From contig NZ_PVBR01000030.1 of the NCBI RefSeq assembly GCF_002980495.1, positions 1 through 53,069 on the forward strand: a stretch of DNA of 53,069 bases, read 5' to 3'. The position numbers and the translations under genes are program-made. Every line of letters begins with the position of its first letter. The first letter of the stretch is position 1. The notes beneath the pieces were generated by a model that worked only from the letters and a program-made list of their open reading frames with translations, was not told where the DNA came from and made no database searches. This stretch comes from Phyllobacterium phragmitis (GTDB lineage: Bacteria; Pseudomonadota; Alphaproteobacteria; Rhizobiales; Rhizobiaceae). Below, piece after piece: positions 8,728-45,222 of the stretch.

Positions 8728-8744
8728 GTGACGATCCCATAAAG

Positions 8745-8757
8745 TGCGTAATACGCA
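8745..8757. promoter_or_regulatory. Candidate LysR box (T-N11-A) upstream of the CocE operon
   Basis: TGCGTAATACGCA is a 5+5 palindrome with the T-N11-A form bound by LysR-type proteins. It lies 18 bp upstream of the LysR start and about 100 bp before the hydrolase. Confidence 0.5.
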
Positions 8758-8777
8758 TGTTAAATGAAGCACTATGC

Positions 8778-8807
8778 ATTTGACACATTTAATGGGGAAT
8801 GTCAAAT
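8778..8807. promoter_or_regulatory. 8-bp inverted repeat overlapping a TTGACA element
   Basis: ATTTGACA (8778-8785) and TGTCAAAT (8800-8807) form a perfect inverted repeat with a 14-bp spacer. The left arm includes a consensus -35 hexamer TTGACA reading towards the hydrolase, but I see no good -10. It may be a second regulator half-site pair or an operator covering the promoter. Confidence 0.4.
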
Positions 8808-8858
8808 TCTTGCCATAAAGAATAACTCGGCCGCCACAGCAGGTCGCGAGGGGATCAT

Positions 8859-10700
8859 ATGAATATACATGCCGACATGTGTCGCGCCTGGCAGACCTTT
8901 CCCAGCGAATATGTCGCAAACCGTCCGGTCGACTTCGATCTGTCTGCGCCTGAATCGCACTATGTGACTATGCGCGATGGCTGCAGAATTGCCGTCGATG
9001 TCTATGTCCCGCAAATTCCGGACTTCAGTGCCGATCACGGCTTTCCGACCATCGCGCTATTCACGCCTTACTACCGCCGTTTCAAGCTGCGACCGGGAGG
9101 CAAGGGCGAAGTCAATCCAAACACCGGCAAGTTTCGAGATTTCTTTGTTCCGCGTGGTTACGCCGTCGTAATCGTCGATGTGCGTGGTACTGGCGCAAGC
9201 TTCGGCACCCGCGATAGTTTCCGCTCCCCGAAGGAACGCGAAGATAGCCGCGAGATTGCTGACTGGATCGTCGCGCAGCCTTGGTCAAACGGTGTCATAG
9301 GCGCGACGGGAGTTTCCTATCTTGGCGCGGCGTCGGACTTTCTGGCGAGTACCGGGCACCCTGCCGTCAAGGCGATCGCCCCGCTGTTCTCCGTCTGGGA
9401 CACCTATGCCGATAATTATTATCCCGGCGGCATTCAGCTCAAATCGCTGATGCAGGTCTATGATGACCTCATGATCGGGCTCGACCACGACAAGCGCGAT
9501 CTTCTCAAGCAGTTTGCATACTTCAACAATCCCGATTTTGAAGGCCCTCAACCCGTTGACGAGGATCCGGATGGTGTTCTGCTGCGTGAGGCCATCCGGG
9601 AGCATCTCGGTAATTTTCGCCAAACGGATTTCATGCGCGAATTCAGTTTCCGCGAGGAGGGACTGCCCTACGATCCGAGCTTCAGTTCGGCTTCGTTCAG
9701 CCCTTATGCCGTTTCACAAGGTATCAAGCCGGATGTGGCCGTCCTCTCTGTATCGGGCTGGCGCGACGGCGCCGGCTACATGAACGGAGCGATCTCCAGG
9801 TTTTTGACGCTGAAGGACAATCCGCGCCATCTCCTGCTTGGACCGTGGGATCATGGCGCGCGTATCGATGTTTCGCCGTGGCGGATGACGGAGGAAGCTG
9901 ATTTTCCGCTACTCGGCGAGGTGCTGCGCTTCTTCGACAACTATCTCATGGGGTTGGATACCGGCCTGCGTGACGAAGCGCCGGTTCATTATTTCACGAT
10001 GCACGCGCAGGAGTGGCGCGCCGCCGCGGAATGGCCGCCGGCCCGGTCGAAGGAGACATATTTTCTCGCTCCAAAGCAGCAGCTTTCGGATGCCGTGCCC
10101 GATGGGACCGGAGCCGACGTTTACAAAGTCGATTTTACGCTGGGAACCGGGGAGTGCACCCGCTACGAACGCATCGCCGGTATTGATGCGCGGATCTATT
10201 ACCCGGACTGGCAAGGTCGCACAGAGCGAATGCTCAGCTATACATCTGCGCCGTTGGAGCAAGCCGCGGAATTCGTTGGGCACCCCATTGCCGACCTCTG
10301 GCTTTCGGCAGACGAACCCGATGCGGCGCTGTTCGTCTATCTCTCGGAGATCGAGGCTGATGGGACTGAGCATTACGTGACCGAGGGGCTTTTGCGTGCG
10401 CTGCATCGCAAGGAAACACCGTCCCCCGAAACCTACCGCACAACATGGCCGTTCCGCAGTTTCTCCCGCCAGGACGCCGCTCCGCTGACACCTGGCAAGA
10501 TCGAGCGCATCCGCATTCCGCTGCTGCCGGTCGCGTGGCGCTTCGCTGCCGGCAGTCGCATTCGCCTGTCCGTCGCCGGTGCGGACGCCGACCATAGCGG
10601 GCAAATCCCTCACGGCCGGCCGCCATTGCTGACATTGGCCTTCGGCGGCGACCAAGCGTCAGCGTTTGAGCTCCCATTGGTCGAGGAAATTGCGCCGTGA
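8859..10700 (+). CDS. CocE/NonD-family (peptidase S15-like) hydrolase
   Basis: A 613-residue alpha/beta hydrolase of the X-Pro dipeptidyl-peptidase/cocaine-esterase family, which cleaves ester or amide bonds. The nucleophile is Ser153 in GATGVSYLGAA. The acid is probably Asp303 (GWRDG) and the base His332 (GPWDHG). The C-terminal third is the jelly-roll domain typical of the family (PGKIERIRIPLLP, AAGSRIRLSVAGADAD). No signal peptide is visible, so it should be cytoplasmic. GAGGGG precedes the ATG. Its stop overlaps the start of the GAF gene and a complete ABC importer follows, so the enzyme probably hydrolyses the imported compound, perhaps an acylated amine or ester. Specificity is not predictable from sequence. 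Confidence 0.9.
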   Translation: MNIHADMCRAWQTFPSEYVANRPVDFDLSAPESHYVTMRDGCRIAVDVYVPQIPDFSADHGFPTIALFTPYYRRFKLRPGGKGEVNPNTGKFRDFFVPRGYAVVIVDVRGTGASFGTRDSFRSPKEREDSREIADWIVAQPWSNGVIGATGVSYLGAASDFLASTGHPAVKAIAPLFSVWDTYADNYYPGGIQLKSLMQVYDDLMIGLDHDKRDLLKQFAYFNNPDFEGPQPVDEDPDGVLLREAIREHLGNFRQTDFMREFSFREEGLPYDPSFSSASFSPYAVSQGIKPDVAVLSVSGWRDGAGYMNGAISRFLTLKDNPRHLLLGPWDHGARIDVSPWRMTEEADFPLLGEVLRFFDNYLMGLDTGLRDEAPVHYFTMHAQEWRAAAEWPPARSKETYFLAPKQQLSDAVPDGTGADVYKVDFTLGTGECTRYERIAGIDARIYYPDWQGRTERMLSYTSAPLEQAAEFVGHPIADLWLSADEPDAALFVYLSEIEADGTEHYVTEGLLRALHRKETPSPETYRTTWPFRSFSRQDAAPLTPGKIERIRIPLLPVAWRFAAGSRIRLSVAGADADHSGQIPHGRPPLLTLAFGGDQASAFELPLVEEIAP

Positions 10701-14268: not shown

Positions 14269-15110
14269 GAAAACACGAAACGGCCGTCTTCATCCTGCCG
14301 GCGGGACTTCTTGTCTGTGCGCTGCTCGGCGTGCCGATGCTGATGATGGCCCGCATCTCATTGAACCACTATGATCCGATGGTTCTCATGGTCGAGGCTT
14401 TGACTGCGGAAAATTATCTCCGAGCTGTCACGGACCCTTATTATCAGCAGGTGCTCATGGTGACGCTCGGTGTAGCGTTATCCAGCACGGTGCTGACCTT
14501 GCTGCTCGCCTTTCCGGCCGCTTATTGGCTGTCGCGCATGGAGAGCAGGTGGAAAAGCACCGTCACCATTCTCACCCTCTTTCCACTGCTTGTCGGAAAT
14601 GTCGTCCGTTCAGCAGGCTGGATTGCCCTGCTCGGCAATGACGGGCTCATAAATGCAACTCTTCAGGAAGCGGGCTTTATCGTGGGCCCTCTGAGGTTGC
14701 TTTATACACCTGGCGCAGTGATTGTCGGCATTGTCGGCGTGGTTCTGCCCTACATGGTGCTCACGCTCTCGGCAGTGATCGAGGGGATACCGCGCCAGGT
14801 GGAAGAAGCCGCCGGAAATCTCGGCGCGCGGCCGCTCACGGTCTTTCGCCGGGTTGTCCTGCCGCTGGCCACCCCTGGTGTCGTGGCCGGCAGCGTTCTC
14901 GTCTTCATCCTGTGCATGAACGCCTATGCGACGCCTGTTCTTCTTGGCGGCCCGCAGTTCCAGATGATGGCACCAGCCGTCTATGATCAGTTCAGCCGCG
15001 TCAGCAACTGGCCGTTTGGGGCAGCACTCGCTTTCATATTACTTATCGTCACCCTTTTGATGACGGTTGTTGGAAGTGCGGCGCTCAGCCGCAAGTATCG
15101 TGCGGCCTGA
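14265..15110 (+). CDS. ABC transporter permease, spermidine/putrescine PotB type
   Basis: A 281-residue inner-membrane permease with six predicted segments. The EAA loop is VEEAAGNLGARPLTVFRRVVLP. The ATG overlaps the binding-protein stop. It is the last gene of the operon that starts at 8859. The order (hydrolase, GAF, permease, ATPase, binding protein, permease) splits the two permeases, less common than adjacent permease genes. Confidence 0.9.
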   Translation: MRKHETAVFILPAGLLVCALLGVPMLMMARISLNHYDPMVLMVEALTAENYLRAVTDPYYQQVLMVTLGVALSSTVLTLLLAFPAAYWLSRMESRWKSTVTILTLFPLLVGNVVRSAGWIALLGNDGLINATLQEAGFIVGPLRLLYTPGAVIVGIVGVVLPYMVLTLSAVIEGIPRQVEEAAGNLGARPLTVFRRVVLPLATPGVVAGSVLVFILCMNAYATPVLLGGPQFQMMAPAVYDQFSRVSNWPFGAALAFILLIVTLLMTVVGSAALSRKYRAA

Positions 15111-15234
15111 GAGGCTGGCTATACTGACTTTTCTTCGGCCGATTCCAGGACTGCGTGGCTACCGCCCTCTACGAGCGGCGTATTCGCTGCTCGTGCGCTC
15201 GAAGAAATGGTCGAACCTCAGAGCGTGAGGCATG

Positions 15235-15492
15235 TGTCGCTCGGCACTTAATGAGGGTCTTCCACACAAAGTGTGGAAGACCCTTAATTATGAGAATGTC
15301 GGTCGTTCGATTCTCAAATTCACTGCATCTGGGAGGAGGCTTACAGCCGTCGACGCAGGCTATAGGCTTCTCGATGATATGGTGTTGTGGCCGTAAATAT
15401 TGGGAACCATATTCTCGCATCAAGTGCCAAAATCAAGCGACCATTATCACAATTAACTGCTAATTATCAAATTAAGTGCCCGCGCAACGCCT
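15235..15492. mobile_element. Possible non-autonomous transposon remnant with GCACTTAAT end repeats
   Basis: The left edge reads TGTCGCTCGGCACTTAATGA at 15235. On the other strand at the right edge are GGGCACTTAATTTGAT, GCAGTTAATTGTGAT and GGCACTTGATG (between 15417 and 15480). A TGTCG start with several internal copies of a GCACTTAATT-like motif is how ends bound by Mu/TnsB-type transposases look. The same sequence, TGTCGAACTGCACTTAATTG, recurs at 28753 beside a truncated TnsB-like transposase. No coding capacity and no clear target duplication are visible. The flanks (15111-15234 and 15493-15573) hold nothing else I recognise. Confidence 0.4.
15254..15284. repeat. Perfect 14-bp hairpin
   Basis: AGGGTCTTCCACAC and its exact complement are separated by AAA. 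No clear T-run follows, so it is not an obvious terminator for the operon that ends at 15110. It sits inside the putative transposon remnant. Confidence 0.7.
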
Positions 15493-15573
15493 TGATATCA
15501 TTGTATTCTGATTCTTGCGGTTTAATGGAAAGTCACACGTGGTGTAAAGCGTTGTCTGGATGAGAGGCTTGGC

Positions 15574-15702
15574 TCAAGAGAAGTCCTCCTTTGCCGAACA
15601 ACGCCGGCTACATATGTGAGTTCCATCAGTGGCGATGGCCAAAGGTTCTCCGCTCACCTCGCAGCGAACCGCGCCGCACAATCCGCCGGTTCTCGTAATC
15701 AT
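15574..15702 (-). pseudogene. GFA-domain (glutathione-dependent formaldehyde-activating-like) relic
   Basis: Reading leftwards from 15702, MITRTGGLCGAVRCEVSGEP matches the start of GFA/CENP-V-type zinc proteins (TGGCLCGAVRYEVSGEP). A degenerate CSRRCS stands where the family has CHCRRCS. The first zinc cysteine is missing and the frame stops after about 42 residues, against 120-160 in intact members. It is a decayed fragment. Confidence 0.55.
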
Positions 15703-15739
15703 CTCCAGACTCTGGCCCTGCCAGCCCTTTCCGTCAAGG

Positions 15740-15777
15740 TTGAGCGCCGCGCGTCCATTCGGACGCGCGGCGCTCAA
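15740..15777. terminator. Strong GC-rich hairpin (17-bp perfect stem, ATTC loop)
   Basis: The stem from TTGAGCGCCGCGCGTCC (15740-15756) pairs perfectly with 15761-15777 around a four-base loop. No long T-tract follows on either strand, so terminator is only the likeliest role. From here to 16164 I see no gene, only the upstream region of the TonB receptor, with a TTGACA at 16067 but no convincing -10. Confidence 0.45.
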
Positions 15778-16164
15778 AGCCTGCCTGCTTTTCAGGGACG
15801 GCCTTGAAACTATTATCTTCCGCTTTCTGCACAGGCTAAGCCAATTGTCCATGACGCAGGCTCAGCGGAAAGCGGAAATAGAGCCAAGCCGCATGCGCTA
15901 TGATCTCGGCAGGCAAACGATGACGCTTGTATCGGCGCGTCGCAATATCGGTCGGCGGGTGCAGGCTCATGCCGGAAAATACCGCCGAAAATGTTAAGGC
16001 GACGCTTCCCAGCAAACTCCTGCAGGTTGCAATGCGAATTCCGGTAGGGGCCCTTTCGCAAATATGTTGACAGATTTTCTCATGTTATCTAACACCCTCA
16101 AACTGGCTGCATTAGCTTCTAGTCGTGCAAGCAATGCGGTCGCTGTTCACAGAGGGGGCTTCAT

Positions 16165-18300
16165 ATGGAATTGCGTTTTGGACTGGTGACCGTCTTGGCT
16201 CTGACGGTGAGCCCAGTTGCTGTTGCGCAGGATATCGTGCTGGAGCGCATCGACATAAACACAGGCGCATCGACCTCGACGATAACCACTTTGCCGGAAG
16301 AATATCCCGGAGGGCAGGTGGCCCGCGGCGGCCGTGTAGGACTACTCGGCAACCGCGACTTCATGGACACGCCGTTCAATATCACCGGCTACACGGCAGA
16401 GACGATCGAAAACCAGGGAGCGCGGACGGTCGCCGATGTCCTGGCTAACGATCCGTCTGTAAGAAGCACCCACGCATCTGGCGGCATGCTTGATTCCTTC
16501 TATGTCAGGGGCTTTCCCCTCGGTGAGGGGAACTTCGGCGAAATCGCCTTCGATGGCGTATATGGCGTTGCCCCGACCTATCGCCTGTTCACGGACTATG
16601 CCGAACGTGTCGAGGTACTCAAGGGACCGACCGCGCTGCTCTACGGCATTTCGCCGAACAGCAGCGTAGGAGGCACGATCAACATCGTCCCCAAACGCGC
16701 TGGGGATGTCGACCTGACGCGGATTACCACGGATTACATGTCGGACCTCTACGGAGGCAGCCATCTGGATATCAGCCGGCGGTTTGGCGAAGATCGCCGG
16801 TTCGGCGTCCGGTTCAATGGCAGTTTTCATGGTGGCGACACGCCGATCGACGATCAGACGCGCAAGGTTGCGGTTGGCGCCCTGGGGCTCGACTATGAGG
16901 GCGAAGGGCTGCGGGCGACGCTCGACATCATCGGCCAGCGGGAAGATTTCGACGCGCCGCAGCGTCCTTTCTTCCCGGTCGCCGGCATAAGCATTCCAGA
17001 TGCGCCCGATGGCAGGCTCAATATTCAACGGCCCTGGGAATGGTCGAAGAGCGAGGATCTCTCCTGGCTGGGACGGGTCGAGTATGATTTGAACGACGAT
17101 GTCATGGTGTTTGCGGCGATTGGCGGCGGTAGCTCCCGTGTCACACGGCTCTTCAGCACGCCGGTCATTCTTAATTCTTTGGGCGATGTCAGTGTCACGC
17201 CGCAGAACGCTATCTTCGATGTCGACAGGACGACCGCGGAGACGGGCGTGCGTGCCAAGTTCGAGACGGCCAGCATCGACCATACGGTTACGCTGCAGGC
17301 AAGCGGCCTTCGCCAGAGCCTTGACAGAGGCATCGAATCCGGGACGGAACAATTCACCAATCTCTATGATCCCTTTCCCCGGCCCGAGCAGGACGTGCCG
17401 GACCCGGCCCACGCTCCAAAAGTTTCCGAGAACAAACTTTACGGACTTGCTCTCTCCGACACGCTTTCCATGATGGATGACCGCTTGTTGGTCACGTTGG
17501 GGGGCCGCTGGCAGCACATCGATTCCGAAAATTATAATGCCACGGGCGCCGTTACCACGTCATCCGACGAAGGCGCTTTCACGCCGCTGGCCGGCATTGT
17601 CGTCAAGCCGTGGGAGAATATCTCGTTCTACGCCAATTATGCCGAAGGCCTCAGCGTCGGCGACAGCGCGCCGACGACGGCGGTCAATGCGGGAGAAACC
17701 CTGTCTCCCTACCGGTCCAGGCAGTATGAGGTCGGCACGAAGGTCGATCTGGGCCAGGTGGCGATGACCCTCAGCGTGTTCCAGATCGAGAAGCCTTTCG
17801 GCGAACTGCAAACGCGCGGGAACGATCTCGTCTTCGTTGAAGGGGGAGAGCAGCGCAATCGCGGTGTCGAACTCAACATTTTCGGCGAAGTGACGCCAGA
17901 GCTCCGGCTGCTCGGCGGTGCGACGTTCCTCCATGGCGAATTGACGGAAACGGTAAACGCCGCCACGCGCGGTAACAAGCCTATCGGTGTTCCGTCGCTG
18001 CAGGTCAATCTGGGCGCGGAGTGGGATACGCCGTTCCTGCCCGGGCTGACGCTGGCCGGCAATATCATCCACACCAGCAAGCAATCCGTCAACACCGCGA
18101 ACACCATGGAGATCCCTTCATGGACTCGGCTCGACCTTGGAGCGAGATATCATACTGAGATCAGCGAGAGGCCCGTCACGTTCAGGGCCGAAGTCGAAAA
18201 CGTTTTCGACCATGACTACTGGTCCGGCGTCGCGAGCTTTGGCACGCTGTCGCAAGGCGCGCCGCTAACGGTGAAACTGTCAATGACGACAGATTTCTAG
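16165..18300 (+). CDS. TonB-dependent siderophore receptor
   Basis: A 711-residue outer-membrane receptor: a signal peptide (residues 1 to about 21, SPVAVAQ), a TonB-box-like stretch (DIVLERIDI), a plug domain (about 60-180 with YVRGFPL and VEVLKGPTALLYG), then a 22-strand barrel ending in a C-terminal Phe. There is no N-terminal signalling (STN) extension, so it should not act through FecI/FecR. AGGGGGC precedes the ATG. It converges on the siderophore biosynthesis operon (18383-26600), with a hairpin between the two stops, so it is the probable receptor for that operon's product. Iron regulation is expected, but I cannot identify a box with confidence. Confidence 0.93.
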   Translation: MELRFGLVTVLALTVSPVAVAQDIVLERIDINTGASTSTITTLPEEYPGGQVARGGRVGLLGNRDFMDTPFNITGYTAETIENQGARTVADVLANDPSVRSTHASGGMLDSFYVRGFPLGEGNFGEIAFDGVYGVAPTYRLFTDYAERVEVLKGPTALLYGISPNSSVGGTINIVPKRAGDVDLTRITTDYMSDLYGGSHLDISRRFGEDRRFGVRFNGSFHGGDTPIDDQTRKVAVGALGLDYEGEGLRATLDIIGQREDFDAPQRPFFPVAGISIPDAPDGRLNIQRPWEWSKSEDLSWLGRVEYDLNDDVMVFAAIGGGSSRVTRLFSTPVILNSLGDVSVTPQNAIFDVDRTTAETGVRAKFETASIDHTVTLQASGLRQSLDRGIESGTEQFTNLYDPFPRPEQDVPDPAHAPKVSENKLYGLALSDTLSMMDDRLLVTLGGRWQHIDSENYNATGAVTTSSDEGAFTPLAGIVVKPWENISFYANYAEGLSVGDSAPTTAVNAGETLSPYRSRQYEVGTKVDLGQVAMTLSVFQIEKPFGELQTRGNDLVFVEGGEQRNRGVELNIFGEVTPELRLLGGATFLHGELTETVNAATRGNKPIGVPSLQVNLGAEWDTPFLPGLTLAGNIIHTSKQSVNTANTMEIPSWTRLDLGARYHTEISERPVTFRAEVENVFDHDYWSGVASFGTLSQGAPLTVKLSMTTDF

Positions 18301-18307
18301 AAAAGGA

Positions 18308-18338
18308 ATGCCGGGCGCTACGCGGCAGCGCCCGGCAT
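18308..18338. terminator. Bidirectional terminator between receptor and siderophore operon
   Basis: A perfect 12-bp stem (ATGCCGGGCGCT with its complement, seven-base loop) lies between the convergent stops at 18300 and 18383. On the minus strand it is followed by TCCTTTTC, which suits termination of the biosynthetic operon. Confidence 0.75.
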
Positions 18339-18382
18339 GGACTTTACATCTCATCCTTCCAAAAAAGCTGCATCCTTTGCCC

Positions 18383-19543
18383 TCATGACGGGCTATCGGA
18401 GAGGCTCACTGCGTAGCCCGGCCGAAACGCGATCGGCAGGAAACGGCGATGATATTCGGCGAATGTCGCGTCCGGGTCGAGATCGGCAAACAGGTCTGGG
18501 TGGAACCATTTCGCCAATTGCTGAACTGCGATAAATTCATAGGGACTGTTGTAAAACTGGTGCCAGATGGCGTGAAAATTCCGTGTTTTCTGGGCTGCAA
18601 TGTCGGTGTAGGCGATACGCCCGGTGAACCATTCGAGCTTCTTGCGCGTCACATCCCGATCCGCGCCCGGGCCAAGCGGAATCCAGTGGCCGCCAGGCAC
18701 ATAGGCTTCCCAGTCGGCGCTTGTGACGACCACATGCTCGGGGTTGGAAGCAATCACCTGTTCTGGATTGAGCTGGCCGAATGTGGTTGGGATGATGTCG
18801 CTGCCGATGTTGTGACCGCCGGCAAGCTCGACATATTTTCCGAAGTTTTCCGCGCCGAATGACAAGCAGCAATCGTCGGCATAGCCGCCGATCCGTTCGA
18901 TGAACACCCTGGGGCGCCGTGGCTTGGCCCGGTCGAGGACGTCGGTGACCCGAGCCATGGCCTGGTGGCGGAATGCTATGATCTCTTCCGCGCGCGCCTC
19001 CCGTCCCATGATCTTGCCCAGGAGACGGATGGTTTTCTCGGTGTTCTGCAGGGGATGATGACGGAAGTCGATGTAGAGGACGGGAACATTGAGCTCCGCG
19101 AGCTTTTCGACATATTCGGCGTCCTCATTGGCGCGTTTCGCCTCAAGATTGAGCAGAACGACATCAGGCTTCTGGACGATGGTCGATTCTATGTCGATCA
19201 GGCCGTTCTCCTGGCCTTTGAACGAAGGAAGGTCGACCAATTTTGGAAAGGCTTGGAGATATTGCGCATAAGTGGCAGGATCGGCCTCAATCAGATCGTT
19301 GCGCCAGGCGACGATGCGGGCCAACGGGTCTTCCTGTTCCAGCGACGCGATGAGATAGAGCTGCCGTCCCTCTCCGAGGAGTATGCGTTTCACCGGCGCG
19401 TTCACCTGCACCTTGCGACCGGCAATATCCGTGACGGTAATTGGTACCTGTTTATCGCCAGCGGCTTGTTCTCCTGCAAACGCCATTGCCGGGATCAACA
19501 GGGCCAGGATCACGGCACGCAACATCGAAGGTCTTCTCTTCAC
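18383..19543 (-). CDS. FecB-like Fe-siderophore periplasmic binding protein
   Basis: A 386-residue protein of the TroA/FecB superfamily, starting at a GTG (19543) that overlaps the exporter stop by GTGA. A GGGAG precedes it. A signal peptide ([18 protein letters not shown]) is followed by [20 protein letters not shown], the conserved opening of Fe-siderophore binding domains. The mature part holds a vicinal pair Cys225-Cys226 in [10 protein letters not shown], unusual for this family and shared with the binding protein at 44094 (DDCC at 218-221). It should bind the ferric siderophore after uptake by the receptor. No permease or ATPase gene accompanies it in the operon. Confidence 0.88.
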
Positions 19544-20769
19544 AACAATACTCCCTTGCTGATTGGCCAGCGCGATTTGAGCCATAGACCGAGCGCAATC
19601 AGCAGCGACACGCCGTAAAGGCTTGCGACGAGCGGGAATGCCGCTTCCAGACCAAAGCGTTGGGTCGCTATAACACCTGCGATTATTCCTGCAACAGAGG
19701 CGCCTTGCTGGCAAGTCTGGGCAAGCCCCAACACCGATCCTTGCTGATCGTTCCGTGTCGCTGCTGAAATGAGCGCCAGGAGCACCGGTGTGGTTCCTCC
19801 CAAGAGCGCGCCCCAGACAAAATAGAGCACCATAAAAAGGCTGATGCTGCTGGTGAGACCGGCCAACTCGGTAACGACCAGGCAGGCTGCGGAAATCCAT
19901 ACGCTCCATCCCAATACATAGGATAGCGCGCGCCCTTCAAAGAGCCGAGCCCATATGGGGGCGCTGACGACAAAACCTAATGCGAGCAATCCATAGCTCA
20001 AACCAGCTATCGCATGATGGGCGCCGAACACATCCGTCATATAGAGGGAGAAAGGAACCTGCAGAACCATCCTGCTTGCGAGCAGCATTCCCATCAGCGC
20101 GAGAAGTCCCGAAACAGGGGCGTCCATTTTCGTCACTTGAGGCGTTGTTCTCTCCTTTGGCGGTTGCAACGTTTCCAACCCGGCGGGGCGCGCCGGCAAG
20201 CTGATCCATGCAATGACCGCGCAGACCGCGCAGATAACACCCGCGGTGAGATTGACGACGGCGAAAGGCATGGCATCCAGAATGAGGCCACCCAGGAAAG
20301 CGCCACCCAGCGAGCCGACATTGGTCGCCACCTGCAGCCATGCGAAGAGCCCGGCACGGTCCCGGCCTCCGGTTATTTGCACGCCATAAGCTTGCGCCGG
20401 CGCAATATAGCCCGCGCAGGCGCCTTGCAGAAAGCGCAGCGCCAGAATTGTCCAGACGTCCTGGGCAAAGGCGACAAGCACTTGCGTGACCGCCAGCCCT
20501 ATCAGCGCCCGAACCATCATCAGCCGATTGCCGTAGCGATCGCCCATACGTCCCCAGAACGCGCTTGTCAGCGAGATGCCAAGCATAGGGCAGACATAGA
20601 CGCCAATTCCAGCAAGGCTGAAGATGCTTTCAGACGAACTGAGCGCCTTGATCTGAATCGGCCAAAAGGGGCCGCTCATCTCCATCGCCCCCATAGAAAT
20701 GAACTGCAGGCCGAACAGGAGCGCGAAGGCGGGTCCAAAGCCGCGAAGTGCGGCAACTGCACCGGTCAT
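19540..20769 (-). CDS. MFS transporter, probable siderophore exporter (SbnD/PvsC-like)
   Basis: A 409-residue major facilitator with about twelve transmembrane segments. The loop motif [13 protein letters not shown] is the MFS signature between helices 2 and 3. It is encoded between the NIS synthetase and the binding protein, overlapping both (TGA/GTG downstream, ATGA upstream). That is the position siderophore exporters such as SbnD, PvsC or AlcS take in NIS clusters. Export of the finished siderophore across the inner membrane is the likely job, by context. Confidence 0.88.
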
Positions 20770-22652
20770 TTTGCGCTCGCCAGCGGATTGGGCAATTGGT
20801 GTTCGACCCGATAATCGCGATAGCGCTCCAGATGCATGCGGAGCACCGAACGGGTCGGCCAGGGATTGTCAAGAAAGGCTTCCCGCTCCTTGATCCAAAA
20901 TGCATCCGACAACATACGTGGCCGCAGCGCATCAAGCGCCTGCTCCGTCTCTTCCCGCAGAATGCGCCATAGACCGTTATCCGCCAGCGTATATTGCTCG
21001 CTCAGGCATAAGGCGATCTCGTGTAGATGGCAGACAAAGCAGGCATCGATCACGAAGGAACGCACGGGGCTGATATCGTCATCGAAGGTCGTCGGCAAAA
21101 TCCCCTCGCGGCTGAACGGTTTCAGATCGTATCCCCGTTCCTTGAACAAGGGGGCAAAACTGCGGCCGTCGCCGAAATCACGGATAAGCAGCTTCCGCGG
21201 CAGGCCCGTATGGTCGAACAGGATGGTACTGTTTTGCTGATGCGCCTCGAACGCAATTCCGTAGAGCAGATACATGGCGAGCGTCGGCCGGATCACGGTG
21301 CGTGCATAAGCACGGAAGAACGCCGCAACGCCTGCTTCGGTTTCGCCGCCTTTTCTGGCGATAAGCTCGCAAAGGACTGGGCGGCCGTCGACTGGGTTCG
21401 CCGTTAAAAGGGCTGCGACAGTTATCGGCAAAAGTCCGTCATCGCGTGCCAAGGAATCGATGTTGCGATAGACGACTGAAAGGAACCGACCAGGATGCTC
21501 GTCGCCGGTTTCAGGGTGGTGGAGAATTGCCCCCAGTTCTTCGACAAAGATCTCCAGCCCGTTGTTGAGATCATCTTCTTTCGACAGAATGTCGGAAATC
21601 AGCGTGCTGAGGCGCGGCCCCATATGGATCGACTTCGCCTGCAACGTGCGCTGCTCGCTCGTCAGCCAGATGGCGACCGGCAGCTTGATGAAAGGTCTGG
21701 GGTCCGGCGTTTCCGGCAGCATGGTTCGAAAGGACATGGATGGCAGCGTCTCGATTTCCGGTCCGGCCGGATCGAAAATACCGGCTTCGATCTCGGGCGC
21801 GAACTCTTCGTGCACGAAGTTGTCCAAATGCCATGCGTGGACAGGGAGTGGAAGCCAGCTCTCGGGCGATTTGCCACGTTCTCTCAGACCGTCGCTCCAG
21901 TTTTGCCACACATCAGGGAAGTTCTTCGAAAACCACTCCGAATAGCTGCCGACATGGGGCATTTTCTCCACATAGGCCCAATCACTGCGCAGTGCTGCGA
22001 TGCGCAGGCGCACCCGGGCCCCGAACTCCGGCGACAAGGCGACCACGTCGTCCGGCGCGAGGCCGGGCTTGGCCTTCCATGTGGGATAGAAGGGATGCCC
22101 CTCGAGTGCGCCCCACTGGTCGAGGGTCATGGCGGCCAGGTGCGACGGCAGGGTCCCTTCGAGATAGCCAAGAAAGCCCCGCGTATCCGCCGCGGATATT
22201 TTCCGGCGCAGTTCCGCGCTCCAGTTTTGCCTGTGGCGTCGCGCGATGACATCATTATGGATGCTGTTGTCAACATCGCGCAGCAGATGCTCCAGCCCAT
22301 CGGGAGCGAGCGCAATCGTCAGGGAAGGTGCAGCCTCTCTCATCAAGGCAACAGGACCGTCAATCCTGTGCCGGACGCCAACGCTATCTAACACTTCGAT
22401 TTGCCCGCGATTTTGCAACGTTCCGGCAGGTGCGGAGCGAAGATCGGCAAAATGCAGCACGCGGCGCGACGGCCAAAGGGGGAACCACGCCTGCCGCCCG
22501 TCGCGTGCCCATAACAATGCATCTGGATCCAGCAGACGCTCAGCGAAAAGACAACGGACAAGCCGGTTGATCGCGTTGCTTGCAGCATCGGCCAGAAGCT
22601 TTGCATCATTCTCTTGACCATGATCTGTGAGGGACGTCATTCTCTCATCCAT
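20766..22652 (-). CDS. IucA/IucC-family NIS siderophore synthetase
   Basis: A 628-residue ATP-dependent synthetase joining a carboxylic acid (citrate or malate type) to an amine through an acyl-adenylate. Motifs in order: [14 protein letters not shown] (184-197), the HP-x-H/K substrate/ATP site; LPLPVHAWH (267-275); [13 protein letters not shown] (323-335); EAHQQN (469-474); and RDFGDG (491-496). The FhuF-like C-terminal region is present. The ATG at 22652 overlaps the stop of the upstream dehydrogenase (TAATG). It is the only NIS synthetase of the cluster, whereas staphyloferrin B and achromobactin loci have three, so the product should contain a single amide of this kind. Confidence 0.93.
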
Positions 22653-23791
22653 TAGGCGGCCTCCGGCCAGTTCGACGGGATATAATCCGGTATGCTGCCC
22701 GCCAATCCGCCATGATAATCGCGGGCCCACTGATAGGTCCTGGCGATGGCTGGAACCGCTACACCGAGCCGTTCCGCCATCGTGATGAGCAGCGCTTGTC
22801 CGAAGGCGATATCCTCGTGGAAGGCACGGCTTTCGCGATCGATGACAAGCCCCGGCCCGTTCGGATTGGGAATGAGGGGCGCACGAATGCCGGCATAGGC
22901 GCGATTTGTGCGCAGAAGCGTGTACATGGTTCGGCTGTCTTCGATCTGGTGGCCATAGGCCTCGATCAATTCCTGACGGAGCGGTTTCACAGAACTCAAA
23001 TCGACGCCGAGATGTGCTTCACTCGCCCGCCGGATCGCCTGGTTTTCCGCATCGCAGGCTTCCAGCAACTCGGCACCTGCCTGAGGACAGTCACTCCACC
23101 AACATAGAAAATCGTCGAAGGGTCTATTTTCCCAAGGAGCGCCGGGGCCGACGAGCGCGTAGAGCACGGCTGGATGCATCAGGGCGTTGCCCGGCGTCAA
23201 TGTGATTTCGAGGTAGTCCTGCAGCTGAGCGACGGGGGCATCGTAGAGGCAGTTCAACATTGCCACGAGAGCGGCGCTACTTGTAGCGCTCTCCCGGCGA
23301 TGAAGCGCCACGAAGAGATCGGCCTTCGCACCCCCCATCCGCACGCGCTTGCCCGCGATCAGGTCAAAGGCGATATGCGGCACGTCCTTCATGCCCCAGA
23401 TCACCACATTGTCATGACTCGATAGAGCCTTTGCGGCGAGCCAGTCGAAGCCACAAAAGCCGGGAATCGCTCCGACAAAAACGCTCTTATCGCGCGGTAG
23501 ATGCGGTTCTATCCGAAGCAGGAGTGCAAGTCTCGCCTGGGCGGGCTGCGTTATGACCACGATATCGGTGTTCTCGAGCGCCTTGCCCGGATCGGTCCCG
23601 ACATGGTCGGGTCTGGCGCTCAGGATGCGATTGTCCTGGATTTCGGCCTGCCAGAGAGCGTCATCTTTATCCCATTGTTCTGCAACCGCGGTGGAGTTGG
23701 TCAGGACGGAGACCTCGATATCCGGATTTTGCTTGAAAAGGACCGCATTCAGGTGCCCGGTGCGGCCTGCGCCACAGATTGTCACCTTCAT
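22652..23791 (-). CDS. Opine/octopine dehydrogenase-family enzyme
   Basis: A 379-residue NAD(P)-dependent enzyme starting at the ATG at 23791, which overlaps the stop of the SbnA-like gene (ATGA). The N-terminal Rossmann motif is MKVTICGAGRTGH (GxGxxG at 7-12). The C-terminal half has the octopine/nopaline dehydrogenase fold with GNALMHPAVLY, holding the His-Pro that contacts the keto acid. Family members reductively join an amino group to a 2-oxo acid. Staphyloferrin loci use an ornithine-cyclodeaminase relative (SbnB) in this position instead. Here the enzyme could attach pyruvate to an aminoethyl-lysine intermediate, giving the carboxyethyl group of rhizobactin. Alternatively it could run in reverse to release 2,3-diaminopropionate. 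Confidence 0.85.
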   Translation of the reverse strand: MKVTICGAGRTGHLNAVLFKQNPDIEVSVLTNSTAVAEQWDKDDALWQAEIQDNRILSARPDHVGTDPGKALENTDIVVITQPAQARLALLLRIEPHLPRDKSVFVGAIPGFCGFDWLAAKALSSHDNVVIWGMKDVPHIAFDLIAGKRVRMGGAKADLFVALHRRESATSSAALVAMLNCLYDAPVAQLQDYLEITLTPGNALMHPAVLYALVGPGAPWENRPFDDFLCWWSDCPQAGAELLEACDAENQAIRRASEAHLGVDLSSVKPLRQELIEAYGHQIEDSRTMYTLLRTNRAYAGIRAPLIPNPNGPGLVIDRESRAFHEDIAFGQALLITMAERLGVAVPAIARTYQWARDYHGGLAGSIPDYIPSNWPEAA

Positions 23792-24798
23792 GCCGCATGT
23801 GCCTTTTCGATCAGCCAGCCATCTAACTGAGCGGCAATTGCCGGATCGAACAGATTGCGCTTTGTCATCCATTCGTCGTCGAATACCGTGCTCAGATATT
23901 TCTCTCCGCCATCGGCAACCGTCGTCACGACCGTGCCACTGAGCTTGCCTGCCGCAATAAACTCCAATGCCTTGTAGATGGCGCCGCCCGTTGAGCCGCC
24001 CACGAGAAGGCCCTTTCGCCGGGCGATATAACGCGCCGTCTCGAAGGCTTGCGTGTCGGTTACCTGCACGCCTTCATCAATGCAGCTATAGTCCAGCACC
24101 TTGCCGACTTCATCTCCTGCGGGTGTGCCGGTTCCCGACTGGTAGTAAGGGTGCCCAGGCTTGCCGAAAACGATCGATCCGACTGGCTCCACGGCGATGG
24201 TGCGTATCGCCGGATTGTGCCGCTTGAGGCGCTGGGATATGCCGGTCATGGAGCCACCGGTGCCAACGCAGCCGACAAATGCGTCGATGCCGTCCGGGAG
24301 CTGGGACAGCAACTCGTCGACATAACCAGCATAGCCTTCAGGGTTTGCCGGATTGTCTGACTGGTTCATGAACAATGCTCCCGGAAGTTGGGCGCCAAGC
24401 TGTGCCGCCAACCGCTGCCTTTCCACCACAGCCACCTCGTCTTCGCGAAAATCGCCTTCCACGTAACGGATTTCAGCGCCGAGCGCGTGCATCATCCGGA
24501 TCTTGTCCGGCGCCGCATGATGGTCCACCACGGCGATAAAGCGCAGTCCGAATTCCACCGCGGCGAGCGCCAGTCCGGTGCCGGTATTGCCGGACGAGGA
24601 TTCGACAATCGTCCCGCCAGGAGCAAGGCGCCCATCCTGAAGCGCGGCAACAACCATGCTGCGCGCCATGCGGTCTTTCATGGAGCCGCCCGGATTGTTC
24701 TTCTCGATCTTCAGGACCAAGGTGCAATCCCGATGCGGAACAGCGATCGACATTACCGGTGTCTGGCCGATCAACTGAGTTATGGACGTATGCATCAT
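23788..24798 (-). CDS. sbnA: SbnA-like PLP-dependent synthase (cysteine-synthase fold)
   Basis: A 336-residue fold-type II PLP enzyme. Schiff-base Lys41 is in NPGGSMKDRMA, the substrate loop is SSSGNTGTG (67-75), and the phosphate-binding glycine loop is GTGGSMTG. SbnA joins O-phosphoserine to the alpha-amino group of glutamate. Relatives join other amines to the aminoacrylate intermediate. The gene starts with ATGATG at 24798, directly next to the stop of the decarboxylase gene, and is followed by the opine dehydrogenase. In this operon the amine could be lysine or glutamate, which decides whether the product is rhizobactin-like or a free diaminopropionate route. An ordinary cysteine synthase is less likely given the context. 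Confidence 0.88.
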   Translation of the reverse strand: MMHTSITQLIGQTPVMSIAVPHRDCTLVLKIEKNNPGGSMKDRMARSMVVAALQDGRLAPGGTIVESSSGNTGTGLALAAVEFGLRFIAVVDHHAAPDKIRMMHALGAEIRYVEGDFREDEVAVVERQRLAAQLGAQLPGALFMNQSDNPANPEGYAGYVDELLSQLPDGIDAFVGCVGTGGSMTGISQRLKRHNPAIRTIAVEPVGSIVFGKPGHPYYQSGTGTPAGDEVGKVLDYSCIDEGVQVTDTQAFETARYIARRKGLLVGGSTGGAIYKALEFIAAGKLSGTVVTTVADGGEKYLSTVFDDEWMTKRNLFDPAIAAQLDGWLIEKAHAA

Positions 24799-26172
24799 CT
24801 ATACCTCTTCAATGGTGTCGGGAGAGAGGGTGATCTGGCCTTCTGAGCTCCGCATCACGCGCAAGCGAGCGGGCATGGGATGGCGGTGGAATTCATTTTC
24901 AAGGAGATCCATCTGGTAACCGGCGGTGTTGGCATAAACCAACAGATCACCGGCTTGCGGCGTGATAGGGAAGGTCAACCATCTGTTGCTGAGAACGTCA
25001 TCGTCCAGACAACTGTGGCCGGCCAGATAAGCGCGGATCGGCGGCGACAAGGAGGGCGCTCTCGCGGTTGGGATGAGAATGGGATCGACCAAAAACTCCG
25101 AGGCAAACCAGGTTTCGCAAGCGCTGAAGCTGCTGCCTTCAACGAAGATGACATGGGTGTTTTGGTCTAACGCCTTCACCCGCGTGATCCGGAAAGCCGT
25201 TATGGCCGCCTGATCAGCCAGGGCGCGGCCTGGTTCCATTCCAAGGATCAGGCCTTCCCGCGCGAAATAGTCAGCGATTGCGCGCCCATCGCCTGTTTCT
25301 GCCTGCAAAAGCCGGCGTAGCCAGTCCTTCGCTGAAAGAACACTGCCATAGGGATAAAAGGAACCGGGAACTTTGCCCGTGCGGTAGTCATCAGATGTTT
25401 GCGACGCCAGATACGCCTGGTAATGTTGTTGATCGACATATTGTATGGGCAATCCGCCGCCAATATCGATCATGCTTGGAGAAAAGCCCATTCTGCGGGC
25501 CTCAGCAACAAGAGCTGCAGCCTCCCTAAGAGCTGCGGCGCGGTCCTCCCAACGATAGCCGTTGAGATGGAAATGCAGCCCGCTAAAGTGCAGTCTGTTT
25601 TCTTGAGCAATGCGCGTAAGGCACTGAATGACTGCCTCCGCCGGCATGCCGAAGCGGCTATTGCCCTGGTTCGTTGGCCGCACACGCAGGAGGACCGGCT
25701 GTGGGCTCGTTTCTGGTGAAAGACAATTGATGAGATCCTCCAGCTCCTCTGGAGAATCCACGGATATCAGAGCATTGCAGGCGATAAGCTCTTTGAGAAA
25801 AATGTCGGTCTTCGCCGGCCCAGTCGCCACGAGTTTAAGGCCATTGGCGCCGAGCTGTCTGGCGTCTCGAAGCTCGTACAAGCTGGAAACGTCGATACCT
25901 GCACCTGTGCGGAGCGCAACCCCAATGAGTCCAGGCGATTTGTTGATCTTCGCTCCGTAATAGAGCGCATGCTCGACGCGATGTTCCGTCAACACGCCCT
26001 TTAAGGCGGTGAGATTTTCCTGCAAGACTTCAGGCCAGATCAGATTGAGCGGAGAACCGTATCGCGCGACCCAGTCAAAAAGCTGCGTACTTTGTTGAGC
26101 AAGAAGGTCTGCGGTCAACGATCGCAGAATTGGCGGCAGGCCAGCGCCGAGCTTGTGGCAATGAAGTGTCAT
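24799..26172 (-). CDS. Fold-type III PLP decarboxylase, SbnH/LysA-like
   Basis: A 457-residue decarboxylase. PLP Lys75 is in [10 protein letters not shown], and [15 protein letters not shown] and MEPGRALAD mark the barrel and the phosphate site. The Cys of [11 protein letters not shown] and the Tyr of [10 protein letters not shown] form the composite active site at the dimer interface. In staphyloferrin B synthesis SbnH removes the carboxylate of a diaminopropionyl intermediate to leave ethylenediamine. A similar step would give the aminoethyl unit of rhizobactin. The ATG at 26172 overlaps the stop of the ParB-like gene (ATGA), and the next gene starts right after its stop. Confidence 0.9.
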
Positions 26173-26600
26173 GACCACGCTCCAATGGCATGTGTCGGCG
26201 CAGCTTCGTCCGGCTTGAGCCGGTACAAAAGCTGCAGAGGCACGTCGCAGCTCGGCAAAGCTTGATCGAAAATGTGCCGCGTCGTCTTGCAGGGAAACTT
26301 TCGGCCACTGCGCGCCATCGCGAAGATGCTCGCAGGCGTGATCGTCTCACCTGGGCGCCAGCTCTCCACGCGCACGGCGCTGTAATCGAGGAGGATCACC
26401 GGTATTGCGCCCAGCCCGAGACGATGGGCAACCGTTAGCCGATGATGACCGTCCATTACGAACATTGCGTCCTTCTCAGCTGTTATCGGCGCCGTCCATG
26501 AGCCCGCATGCAGGATTTGCCCCTGCAACTCATTAACTCTTTCGAGATCCACCTCTTCGGTGGGAATCAAGCGGTCCGGGGAGACAAAACAATAGTCCAT
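26169..26600 (-). CDS. Short SbnI/ParB-like protein, possible free-serine kinase
   Basis: A 143-residue ParB/sulfiredoxin-fold protein. The ParB-box motif DGHHR is at residues 50-54, preceded by [10 protein letters not shown] with an acidic residue that could serve as base. SbnI of Staphylococcus has the same N-terminal domain, makes O-phosphoserine for SbnA and senses haem through a longer C-terminal part. This protein is far shorter than SbnI (about 254), so it may be the kinase core without the regulatory half. The start at 26600 has AGAGGT upstream; an ATG 15 bp earlier is possible. It is the first gene of the operon, which fits substrate supply. Confidence 0.78.
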
Positions 26601-26648
26601 GCGCCTACCTCTCATGAGTAATGTCAGGGCATAATACTTGAGTTGTTT

Positions 26649-26664
26649 TATCATGTTTATGACA
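26649..26664. promoter_or_regulatory. Candidate operator upstream of the siderophore operon
   Basis: TATCAT-GTTT-ATGACA is a 6+6 inverted repeat with one mismatch, in an AT-rich patch 49 bp before the first gene, with a TATTAT between it and the start. It could bind an iron regulator such as RirA or Fur/Irr, but it does not clearly match any of their consensus sites. Confidence 0.3.
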
Positions 26665-26991
26665 ATGGCTAGACGGTTTTGATTTTATGGTCAAGCTGAA
26701 CGATTACTCTCGGCGACATCCTTCGGCATGGCGATCAACATGAAAGCAAGACACTCTCGAACTCACGGAGGAAAGCCACGATCTCAAGAAGCTGCGATTG
26801 CAACCGTGCACTGCCGCCGTTCCAAGCGCGTCCTCTACTTCGTCCCAGCTTCGCGTGATAAGGACGTTCACATTTCTCTCCACTATCATTGGATGTGCGC
26901 CGTTATTCACCTCAAAAGTGTGATTTAAATTGGTGAATGCGACGGGTTTGGAATGCTTATGTTCTTACTTTGTTCTATGTCGGCATGAGAG
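26665..26991. other. Intergenic stretch upstream of the siderophore operon
   Basis: No supportable gene. A 68-codon frame at 26704-26910 (minus) has no family resemblance I trust. The left end carries the operon's promoter region. Confidence 0.5.
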
Positions 26992-27222
26992 TCAAGGAAA
27001 AAGGAATAATTTCCCATAATGTTCCAGGAAGGCTCGCGGCGGAAAGAGCATCTTGCCGGTCAACTGGTTGATGGTTGGCTTATCGTATAGGCCCCTACGA
27101 GGGCGACGAATGTCGCCTCGATTGGTAAGCCGCTGCAGCGCATTTTCGACAGCATTGGCGTTCCGATGTCCAGAAAATCGTCGCGACCAGATGCCGACGG
27201 GCGCTGCCTTGGTCAGTAGCAA
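26992..27222 (-). pseudogene. AbiEi/DUF6088-type antitoxin fragment
   Basis: The peptide contains ENALQRLTNRGDIRRPRRGL followed by YDKP, the winged-helix core of type IV abortive-infection antitoxins (AbiEi/DUF6088), where a basic loop ends in RGLY. Full-length members are about 190-200 residues. Here the similarity fades after TGKMLFPP and the frame stops at 76 residues. No cognate AbiEii nucleotidyltransferase toxin is nearby. It starts at a TTG, and expression is doubtful. Confidence 0.5.
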
Positions 27223-27310
27223 CTGCTAAGTGAGTTAGGCCAAAAATTTATATCAAAATATCAGTCAGTCAGGGGTCGCTATCTTCTTGTCGTCCCTTGC
27301 TCACTGAGGT

Positions 27311-27517
27311 TCATTCACCGATCAGGCCATCGAAAACTTCAAGCATGGCGTCACTGATCGCCTTGCCGAGCGCGGCTGCGGTCTCAGTCAGCACTTCCTC
27401 ATTCATGTCACGAGCAGCCATTGCGAAGGCAGCGCCTTGTGCCGTCACGATCTCCTGCGCGCGCTGGATCGCCCATAGGGCGAAGTCGCTGCGGTTACTG
27501 ATTTCCACGGTTTCCAT
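27311..27517 (-). CDS. Small conserved-looking hypothetical protein (68 aa)
   Basis: A 68-residue acidic, helix-forming protein starting METVEISNRSDFALWAIQRA, with an AGGAG five bases before the ATG. Its composition (Ala/Glu-rich amphipathic helix) and clean start suggest a real gene. I do not recognise a family. It is divergent from the exonuclease gene that begins 92 bp away. Confidence 0.55.
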   Translation of the reverse strand: METVEISNRSDFALWAIQRAQEIVTAQGAAFAMAARDMNEEVLTETAAALGKAISDAMLEVFDGLIGE

Positions 27518-27608
27518 GATTTCTCCTGATTTTTTCGAGCGGATGCCTTATAGCGAATTTGAAGGACGATGCAGTCCAGGAAATTGATTTAGTGAACCTG
27601 ATAGTCGA

Positions 27609-28571
27609 ATGACGCAGCAGTTTGATCTCTTCGTTGCAAACGGGGTAGCATCTGCGAAGGTGACTGGTTCATCGGCGATGAGGCACCGTTCTCCGGCTGC
27701 GTTGAGCGAAGACGACATGGTGCGGCATCTCCAGGAGACCGGCCGGTACCGTGTCCTGAAAAAACTCGAGCCTCGTTCTGTCACTGCGGCCGCGCGACCC
27801 GGATTTCCGCTGAATGGCGTGATCCTCGACACCGAAACCACCGGCCTCAACCATCGCAAGGACGAGATCATCGAGATCGGAGCCGTTGCGTTCACATTCG
27901 ATGAGGCCGGTAATATCGTCGGTGTCTACAGTGGACTGCAGCAACCGGACATTTCGATCCCACCGGAAATCACCCGTCTCACCGGTATCACCGACGAGAT
28001 GGTGACAGGCCAGATGATCGATGTCGATCAACTGGGCTCGATCGTCGAGCCGGCCGATCTCGTGATCGCGCACAACGCCGGTTTCGACCGACCGTTCTGC
28101 GAGGCCTTCTCAGCCATTTTCGTCGGAAAAGCCTGGGCCTGCTCGATCTGCGAAATCGACTGGGCGGCCCGTGGCTTCGAAGGCACCAAGCTTGGCTACC
28201 TGATCGGGCAGGCGGGCTATTTCCACGAGGGCCATCGGGCCGTCGATGACTGCTTTGCCCTGCTCGAGGTCCTCGTACAGGGTGGGAGAGAGCCGGGACG
28301 AACGCCGTTTGCCGAGCTCTATGCGGCAAGCCAGCGATCCCGTGTGCGCATCTTCGCGGAAAACAGCCCATTCGATATGAAAGATAACCTGAAGGCGCGC
28401 GGCTACCGATGGTCGGATGGCAGTGACGGTCGTTCGAAGTCCTGGTGGATCGAACTTGCGGAAGACGCACGCGAGGACGAACTTCGTTATCTGCGGTTGG
28501 AAATCTATCGCTGGGAGGACGCCGACCGACCGGTCAAGCGCCTCACCGCATTTGATCGCTTCAAGGCCTGA
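27609..28571 (+). CDS. 3'-5' exonuclease of the DnaQ (DEDDh) superfamily
   Basis: A 320-residue protein whose middle is a DEDDh exonuclease: ExoI VILDTETTGL (Asp74, Glu76), ExoII IAHNAGFDRPF and ExoIII HEGHRAVDDC with the general-base His. About 70 residues precede the domain, and about 90 follow (DMKDNLKARGYRWSDG, then SKSWWIEL), a tail seen in stand-alone rhizobial 3'-5' exonucleases. It is therefore not the DNA polymerase III epsilon subunit but a proofreading/repair-type nuclease. It is a monocistronic gene among mobile remnants, which may mean plasmid or island location. Confidence 0.88.
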   Translation: MTQQFDLFVANGVASAKVTGSSAMRHRSPAALSEDDMVRHLQETGRYRVLKKLEPRSVTAAARPGFPLNGVILDTETTGLNHRKDEIIEIGAVAFTFDEAGNIVGVYSGLQQPDISIPPEITRLTGITDEMVTGQMIDVDQLGSIVEPADLVIAHNAGFDRPFCEAFSAIFVGKAWACSICEIDWAARGFEGTKLGYLIGQAGYFHEGHRAVDDCFALLEVLVQGGREPGRTPFAELYAASQRSRVRIFAENSPFDMKDNLKARGYRWSDGSDGRSKSWWIELAEDAREDELRYLRLEIYRWEDADRPVKRLTAFDRFKA

Positions 28572-28752
28572 CAAGCTATCATCGTGCGAGTAGGCATCCA
28601 GTGATGAGCGGCGCGGGATTCCTTTTCAAGGGCCGTTACGAAGCGAGCCGCTGGCGCCGTTGGCACGGCTCTTATGCTGCATTCGGCATCCGGGACGTGA
28701 ACGTCGCTCTGGTAACGGCAATCGTGGTGCCCGTATTGCCGGTAACAATGTC

Positions 28753-44075: not shown

Positions 44076-44093
44076 CCGGATTGCTCCTTGAAC

Positions 44094-45215: not shown

Positions 45216-45222
45216 GGCTGCC

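Follow-up and report, generated by a model that had tools for sequence, protein, structure and literature searches.

A probable rhizobactin-type siderophore locus in Phyllobacterium phragmitis and its relatives, with a CitE-like gene as candidate determinant of the incorporated acid

Several described pathways share part of their enzymatic logic with the eight-gene siderophore locus that is the subject of this work. It lies at positions 16165-26600 of a 53 kb stretch (the whole stretch analysed, hereafter the window) on contig NZ_PVBR01000030.1 (C30) of the draft genome (5.6 Mb) of Phyllobacterium phragmitis, and we assign it, with a probability of about 0.8, to the biosynthesis, export and uptake of a rhizobactin-type siderophore. 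The staphyloferrin B (sbn) pathway has the logic of a SerK/SbnI-type kinase, an SbnA-type synthase, a pyridoxal phosphate (PLP) decarboxylase and synthesis independent of non-ribosomal peptide synthetases (i.e. by NIS synthetases) in common with the locus. It employs, however, an SbnB-type dehydrogenase, three NIS synthetases and the citrate synthase SbnG, whereas the locus has one NIS gene and an enzyme of the Octopine_DH family instead of SbnB; neither an SbnB-type nor a citrate synthase gene is present among the eight genes, to which the search for SbnB and SbnG was confined. The rhizobactin 1021 (rhb) system shares the name and the NIS route, but yields a citrate-hydroxamate siderophore from other genes, namely two NIS synthetases together with N-hydroxylase and acetylase genes, and beyond one NIS synthetase nothing of that set occurs among the eight genes. 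Octopine dehydrogenase and the opine metallophores resemble the locus in that a keto acid is reductively joined to an amine, but in the locus the dehydrogenase is coupled with a NIS synthetase. The staphylopine-type dehydrogenases belong to another family, the hallmark of these systems being a nicotianamine-synthase-like CntL with a CntM-type dehydrogenase; neither family is represented among the eight genes.

Three further systems resemble the locus in gene content (articles are cited by PMC number, in each case for the part of the text that was available). The proteobactin (pbt) locus of Proteus mirabilis comprises a NIS synthetase, a receptor, a decarboxylase, a PLP synthase, an octopine-type dehydrogenase, a major facilitator superfamily (MFS) transporter, a binding protein and a SerK-like protein, so that all eight proteins of the window locus have counterparts in it. 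It differs in gene order, in an ABC permease/ATPase pair alongside and in the CitE-like PbtI, an extra gene of the operon that is named citrate lyase beta subunit in a review (PMC11026637); as the 53 kb window holds no CitE-like match, the locus does not have the full pbt set. The permease that adjoins the Proteus locus has a homologue with 52% identity on another contig of the P. phragmitis genome (G000:C9:155455-156471), and such a permease and ATPase adjoin the cluster in many other carriers.

In Sinorhizobium fredii, y4yB-y4xM has been listed with matching gene content (PMC10970691). In strain NGR234 it encodes, in the same order as the window locus, a ParB/SerK-like protein, the decarboxylase Y4yA, a cysteine-synthase-like enzyme, a member of the octopine dehydrogenase family, an IucA/IucC synthetase and an MFS transporter. 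Our comparison rests on the copy on pNGR234a (L101, 6192-13237), a second one being present on pNGR234b; unlike the window locus, the pNGR234a copy lies between nopX and nopL in a type III secretion locus and has no receptor or binding protein adjoining it. The role of y4yB-y4xM has been called enigmatic, and the expression of y4xP is flavonoid-dependent (PMC3973906). Finally, 'Putative siderophore 1' of Pseudomonas, to which no product was assigned (PMC8719888), shares decarboxylase, PLP enzyme, dehydrogenase, IucA/IucC synthetase and MFS transporter with the Pseudomonas loci collected here, and also has an aminotransferase, which is present in one of those loci (L061) and absent from the window locus. 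A class V aminotransferase gene adjoins the set both in L061 (14310-15494) and on a Serratia plasmid (L100, 1586-2770).

Occurrence of the gene set and its link to rhizobactin

A search of the genome collection with the dehydrogenase alone, by peptide patterns, recovered 72 loci, which do not amount to a full census and of which 8 are cut by contig ends. Genes for the decarboxylase, the SbnA-like enzyme and the NIS synthetase lie beside the dehydrogenase gene in all 72, the MFS gene in 71, and those for the SerK-like protein, the binding protein and the receptor in 67 each. The constancy of these companions argues against a chance neighbourhood. Among plasmids, 46 records carry the dehydrogenase, 22 of them from Sinorhizobium; within Phyllobacterium it is present in four of five other genomes, and 55 more distant relatives yielded one weak match only (27% identical). 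The distribution is patchy, as in mobile clusters. Judged by the NIS protein, the closest named carrier is Phyllobacterium salinisoli (85% identical). On the Serratia marcescens plasmid L100, the decarboxylase gene as annotated ends within an overlap with an IS903B-type transposase gene (8495-9463).

The structure of rhizobactin was reportedly established by Smith et al. in 1985, and we found the complete cluster on plasmids of two strains (L089, L090) of S. meliloti, the species of the first known producer, DM4, both strains being other than DM4 itself. Following its discovery in that strain, rhizobactin was also reported to be released by Pseudomonas sp. FEN, in which it was identified by high-resolution mass spectrometry (MS) and MS/MS and was accompanied by a larger amount of rhizobactin B, in which citramalate replaces malate; the evidence for rhizobactin B consists of MS/MS and of nuclear magnetic resonance of a partly purified sample, which placed citramalate and alanine (PMC7676072). 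The genome of FEN carries the same gene set as the window (L073), which places the set in a strain that makes rhizobactin, and its one IucA/IucC gene lies within L073. A single IucA/IucC gene was found in all eight carrier genomes tested, and the genome of the window itself has two.

The atom balance agrees with this co-occurrence. Lysine, a phosphoserine-derived unit less CO2, pyruvate and malate sum to C15H27N3O8, for which [M+H]+ is calculated as 378.1871, and the version with citramalate is calculated at 392.2027; the values measured in FEN were 378.1866 for rhizobactin and 392.2020 for rhizobactin B (PMC7676072). When seven amino acids, three keto acids, five acids and the presence or absence of a decarboxylation were combined (210 combinations), the measured masses fitted rhizobactin, rhizobactin B and one isobaric form with ornithine and citramalate only, and all fitting combinations contain pyruvate and a decarboxylation. 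Because one of the fitting forms is isobaric with rhizobactin, because sequence alone leaves the substrates unfixed and because the family uses citramalate in FEN, the cluster might make a molecule closely related to rhizobactin in which ornithine replaces lysine, 2-oxoglutarate replaces pyruvate or a different hydroxy acid forms the NIS amide; we consider this improbable, as the MS/MS of FEN was assigned to the rhizobactin skeleton (PMC7676072) and the rhizobial loci are without the CitE-like gene. The FEN product is also not of the citrate/diaminopropionate type (PMC7676072), and this, together with the one NIS gene and the Octopine_DH-family enzyme, makes it scarcely credible that the locus produces a siderophore like staphyloferrin B, even though the locus shares with the sbn pathway SerK/SbnI-like and SbnA-like genes as well as a LysA-type decarboxylase. 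Co-occurrence in FEN, the S. meliloti plasmids and the atom balance all favour rhizobactin, the product that the initial annotation had proposed; all reactions and their substrates are inferred, as is the end product in P. phragmitis itself.

Several points weigh against the assignment. The link between genes and product is one of co-occurrence; FEN is a draft genome from another class and its NIS protein is 49% identical to that of the window, so that the acid used in P. phragmitis may differ. A serK gene is absent near 5 of the 72 loci, and a search across the whole genomes of these five carriers, run with no positive control, found none. In addition, the locus has one IucA/IucC gene, but the genome holds a second NIS locus on another contig (L099, G000:C26:9000-28000). 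There, one NIS gene is accompanied by an N-monooxygenase-like gene, a FoxA-like receptor and FhuB/FhuD-like genes, and on account of these L099 probably makes a second siderophore of the hydroxamate type.

Rhizobactin might, lastly, be made not by this locus but by counterparts of rhbAB, two genes of the rhizobactin 1021 system. This is very unlikely in view of the rhb pathway using its own NIS synthetases (RhbC and RhbF) and of the sole IucA/IucC gene of FEN sitting in L073; the 'diaminopimelate decarboxylase' of the FEN authors may be the decarboxylase of L073 itself. It is nevertheless to two rhbAB homologues that those authors pointed, which also counts against our assignment, but rhizobactin 1021 is a hydroxamate and rhizobactin is not (PMC7676072). 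We retain the reading of the locus as one for a rhizobactin-type siderophore.

Enzymes of the locus and the proposed route

All genes named in the initial annotation are present at 16165-26600, with refined ends. They form a minus-strand operon (26600-18383) and, beyond it, a plus-strand receptor gene (16165-18300). In the order of transcription, the operon encodes a ParB/SerK-like protein, a PLP decarboxylase, an SbnA-like PALP enzyme, a member of the octopine dehydrogenase family, an IucA/IucC (NIS) synthetase, an MFS transporter and a siderophore-binding protein. When the starts are set as in relatives, each gene either abuts the next or shares 1 or 4 bases with it, which is the pattern expected for a single operon. 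The synthetase scores 156 bits against a Pfam cut-off of 25 and is adjoined by transporter, binding protein and receptor, i.e. the make-up of a NIS siderophore cluster; an Rfam scan of 15000-28700 at gathering scores gave no matches.

For the 143-residue product of serK (26169..26600, minus strand) Pfam gave no match. A profile of 27 homologues, however, retrieves SerK, the free serine kinase, best and SbnI next, with matching regions at the front (15-119) and the back (202-241, including the KTTRH motif) of SerK, and the short protein aligns to both ends of SerK without its middle part. When its predicted model (mean pLDDT, the predicted local distance difference test, 90.5) was compared with the PDB, the top nine matches were five entries for SerK, three for SbnI and one for an unnamed Pyrococcus protein. 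The catalytic glutamate of SerK, E30, which is mutated in several of the matched entries, aligns with the near-invariant E15 of the window protein, so that the latter shares both the predicted fold and the glutamate of the SerK/SbnI family. What had been described as an SbnI-like serine kinase core looks, in both profile and model, like a minimal serine kinase that lacks the middle part of SerK. In two Sinorhizobium loci (L018, L019) DDYHR stands in place of the SerK motif DGHHR, with serK near 7280, and the binding protein is matched over a short stretch, for which reason this copy may be decaying.

The second gene (24799..26172, minus strand; longest frame from 26178) encodes a LysA-fold PLP decarboxylase of the Y4yA family, a candidate for acting on the serine-derived unit. 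Among NCBIfam models LysA matches it best (101 bits, cut-off 298) and FslC much less well; this corrects the label SbnH-like, SbnH itself not being among the matches. Every row of the alignment has the PLP lysine, and at least 90% have an SCLD motif. The putative enzyme for joining O-phosphoserine and lysine (23788..24798, minus strand) has SbnA as its best NCBIfam match (244 bits, cut-off 350), narrowly bearing out the earlier designation as it stands barely above cystathionine beta-synthase (243 bits); both the PLP lysine and an SGNTG motif occur in every row. The dehydrogenase (22652..23791, minus strand), a candidate for the reductive joining of pyruvate, belongs to the Pfam family Octopine_DH and has octopine dehydrogenase as its closest solved relative (3c7a, E 1e-30), as its annotation as an opine dehydrogenase implied. 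The residues aligned with H212, R324 and D329 of octopine dehydrogenase, which are catalytic there, are invariant in 75 of 75 rows.

The assignment of the NIS synthetase (20766..22652, minus strand), which is proposed to couple malate to N6 of lysine, draws on Pfam, NCBIfam, a solved relative and a tree; its best named model is FslA, far under the cut-off, and its closest solved relative AsbB, neither of which settles the acid used. The MFS transporter (19540..20769, minus strand; nearest model FslB) is the proposed exporter. The periplasmic siderophore-binding protein (18383..19543, minus strand) has its longest frame from 19909, and its start is placed at about 19543 by the overlap seen in relatives. 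Domain and family matches identify the product of 16165..18300 (plus strand) as a TonB-dependent siderophore receptor. A second siderophore-uptake set, comprising a TonB receptor, a periplasmic binding protein and a siderophore-interacting FAD protein, lies elsewhere in the window (42954-47373, minus strand).

In the route that we propose, the minimal SerK would phosphorylate serine to O-phosphoserine, and the SbnA-like enzyme would add the aminoacrylate derived from it to the alpha-amine of lysine. The LysA-fold decarboxylase would then remove the serine-derived carboxyl to give N2-(2-aminoethyl)lysine, the octopine-type dehydrogenase would reductively join pyruvate to the new primary amine, and the single NIS synthetase would couple malate to N6 of lysine, giving rhizobactin (C15H27N3O8). 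Decarboxylation is placed before the dehydrogenase step because a PLP decarboxylase requires a free primary amine. The [M+H]+ values calculated for the successive products are 234.145, 190.155, 262.176 and 378.187. The MFS transporter would export the product, and receptor and binding protein would retrieve its iron complex.

Iron-regulator-type boxes

Boxes of the form TGA-N9-TCA, the type of operator bound by RirA, an iron regulator of rhizobia, are found in the window both upstream of the operon (26639..26653) and upstream of the receptor gene (16068..16082). Alphaproteobacterial, chiefly rhizobial, loci were surveyed for such boxes (33 in the set, those not counted below being without the gene or a clear start). 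Of 29 loci, 22 have one no more than 300 bp from the start of the receptor gene, mostly 62-109 bp before it, and of 26 loci, 20 have one at most 300 bp from the start of serK, mostly 53-98 bp before it, against a background chance of 9.5%. The loci without a receptor box are six of Bradyrhizobium, which have another receptor, and that of S. meliloti AK83; those without a serK box are five of Bradyrhizobium and L028. Bradyrhizobium loci mostly have no boxes and carry their other receptor (50-53% identical) upstream of serK, and the boxes of two of them (L029 at -249, L026 at -139) look like chance. Over the window as a whole the motif is not enriched (17 found versus 12.7 expected, a number reached in 21 of 100 shuffles), so that only its placement across loci is informative. 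Repression of the locus by RirA is likely; in the Pseudomonas locus L061, genes for an extracytoplasmic function (ECF) sigma factor and a FecR-like frame take the place of the boxes.

The boxes also bear on the notion that the SbnA-like enzyme is a cysteine synthase and that the set serves sulphur metabolism. The fold family of this enzyme does include cysteine synthases and Y4xP of S. fredii has been reported as one, according to a citing paper (PMC3973906), which weighs against a siderophore role. The NIS synthetase and the exporter are nevertheless constant companions of the enzyme, receptor and binding protein occur in most loci, and iron-regulator-type boxes precede both units, all of which renders a role in sulphur metabolism hardly plausible beside that of a rhizobactin-type siderophore locus.

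The CitE-like gene and the choice between malate and citramalate

A homologue of the CitE-like gene is present in all 26 gammaproteobacterial loci (23 from Pseudomonas, FEN included, plus Proteus, Budvicia and Providencia), and in none of the 46 loci from alpha- and betaproteobacteria (6 of them truncated); the Serratia plasmid locus has it as well. At E <= 1e-60, the Pseudomonas version is found in 3 of 72,556 plasmid records (two Proteus, one Serratia), which match the gammaproteobacterial organisms among the 46 dehydrogenase carriers. Weaker relatives at 1e-20 occur in 121 plasmid records, 18 of them from Rhizobium, and are less than 40% identical among the matches listed; since these are common, the tie to the cluster holds for the close version alone.

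The best NCBIfam model for the CitE-like protein is RipC, a C-C lyase of itaconate degradation (164 bits, cut-off 375), and its closest solved relatives are beta chains of bacterial acyl-CoA lyases. Enzymes of the RipC/Ccl type cleave citramalyl-CoA into acetyl-CoA and pyruvate, and in reverse the CitE-like enzyme would produce citramalate, the acid of rhizobactin B. The pattern fits the presence of citramalate in rhizobactin B of Pseudomonas and of malate in rhizobactin of Rhizobium, the Rhizobium producer of the malate form belonging to a lineage whose loci are without the gene. On a quick NIS tree with no bootstrap, from which L051 was left out (its NIS gene is cut by the contig end), presence of the CitE-like gene changes only twice, and the agreement is thus a fit with the chemistry and not statistical proof. 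FEN also makes some of the malate form besides the citramalate form (PMC7676072). Under thresholds that we set ourselves, three near-fixed columns of the NIS alignment separate loci with and without the gene, two of which (F/Y188 and K/R195) lie within the loop GHPxYPTWKxKPG; with exceptions in L059, L043 and others, and with only two changes on an unbootstrapped tree, this split is suggestive only.

As the pbt operon has the same core genes, proteobactin is predicted to be rhizobactin-like. We lean, by a modest degree, towards a wider view in which one widespread gene set builds the rhizobactin family and the CitE-like enzyme sets the acid: with it (Pseudomonas, Enterobacterales), citramalate would be formed from acetyl-CoA and pyruvate to give mainly rhizobactin B, and without it malate would be used to give rhizobactin. 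Proteobactin would then be of the rhizobactin B type, and the S. fredii copy would have been incorporated into a type III secretion locus, whereby the synthesis of rhizobactin may have come under the control of a legume signal.

We found no published assignment of the cluster to rhizobactin, although one may exist elsewhere, given that the subscription literature was mostly outside our reach. Neither did we find a paper that pairs rhizobactin with opine dehydrogenase and siderophore, or with proteobactin, nor a structure of proteobactin in the literature examined. In the text available, two papers on rhizobial siderophores treat petrobactin and the hydroxamate rhizobactin 1021 (PMC8822346, PMC12815270), the FEN genome note names no such cluster (PMC7849696) and four others contain nothing further on these genes (PMC7204214, PMC3326035, PMC3323832, PMC12026967). 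As far as these searches show, the CitE switch and the prediction for proteobactin are new.

If true, the assignment would correct the published attribution of FEN rhizobactin to rhbAB homologues, and it would join pbt, y4yB-y4xM and 'Putative siderophore 1' of Pseudomonas in one product family. It would also establish a pathway that combines the action of a NIS synthetase with that of an opine dehydrogenase. Direct predictions follow for the structure type of proteobactin and for the gene that decides between malate and citramalate, by which the rhizobactin pathway becomes testable and a product is suggested for the related bacteria.

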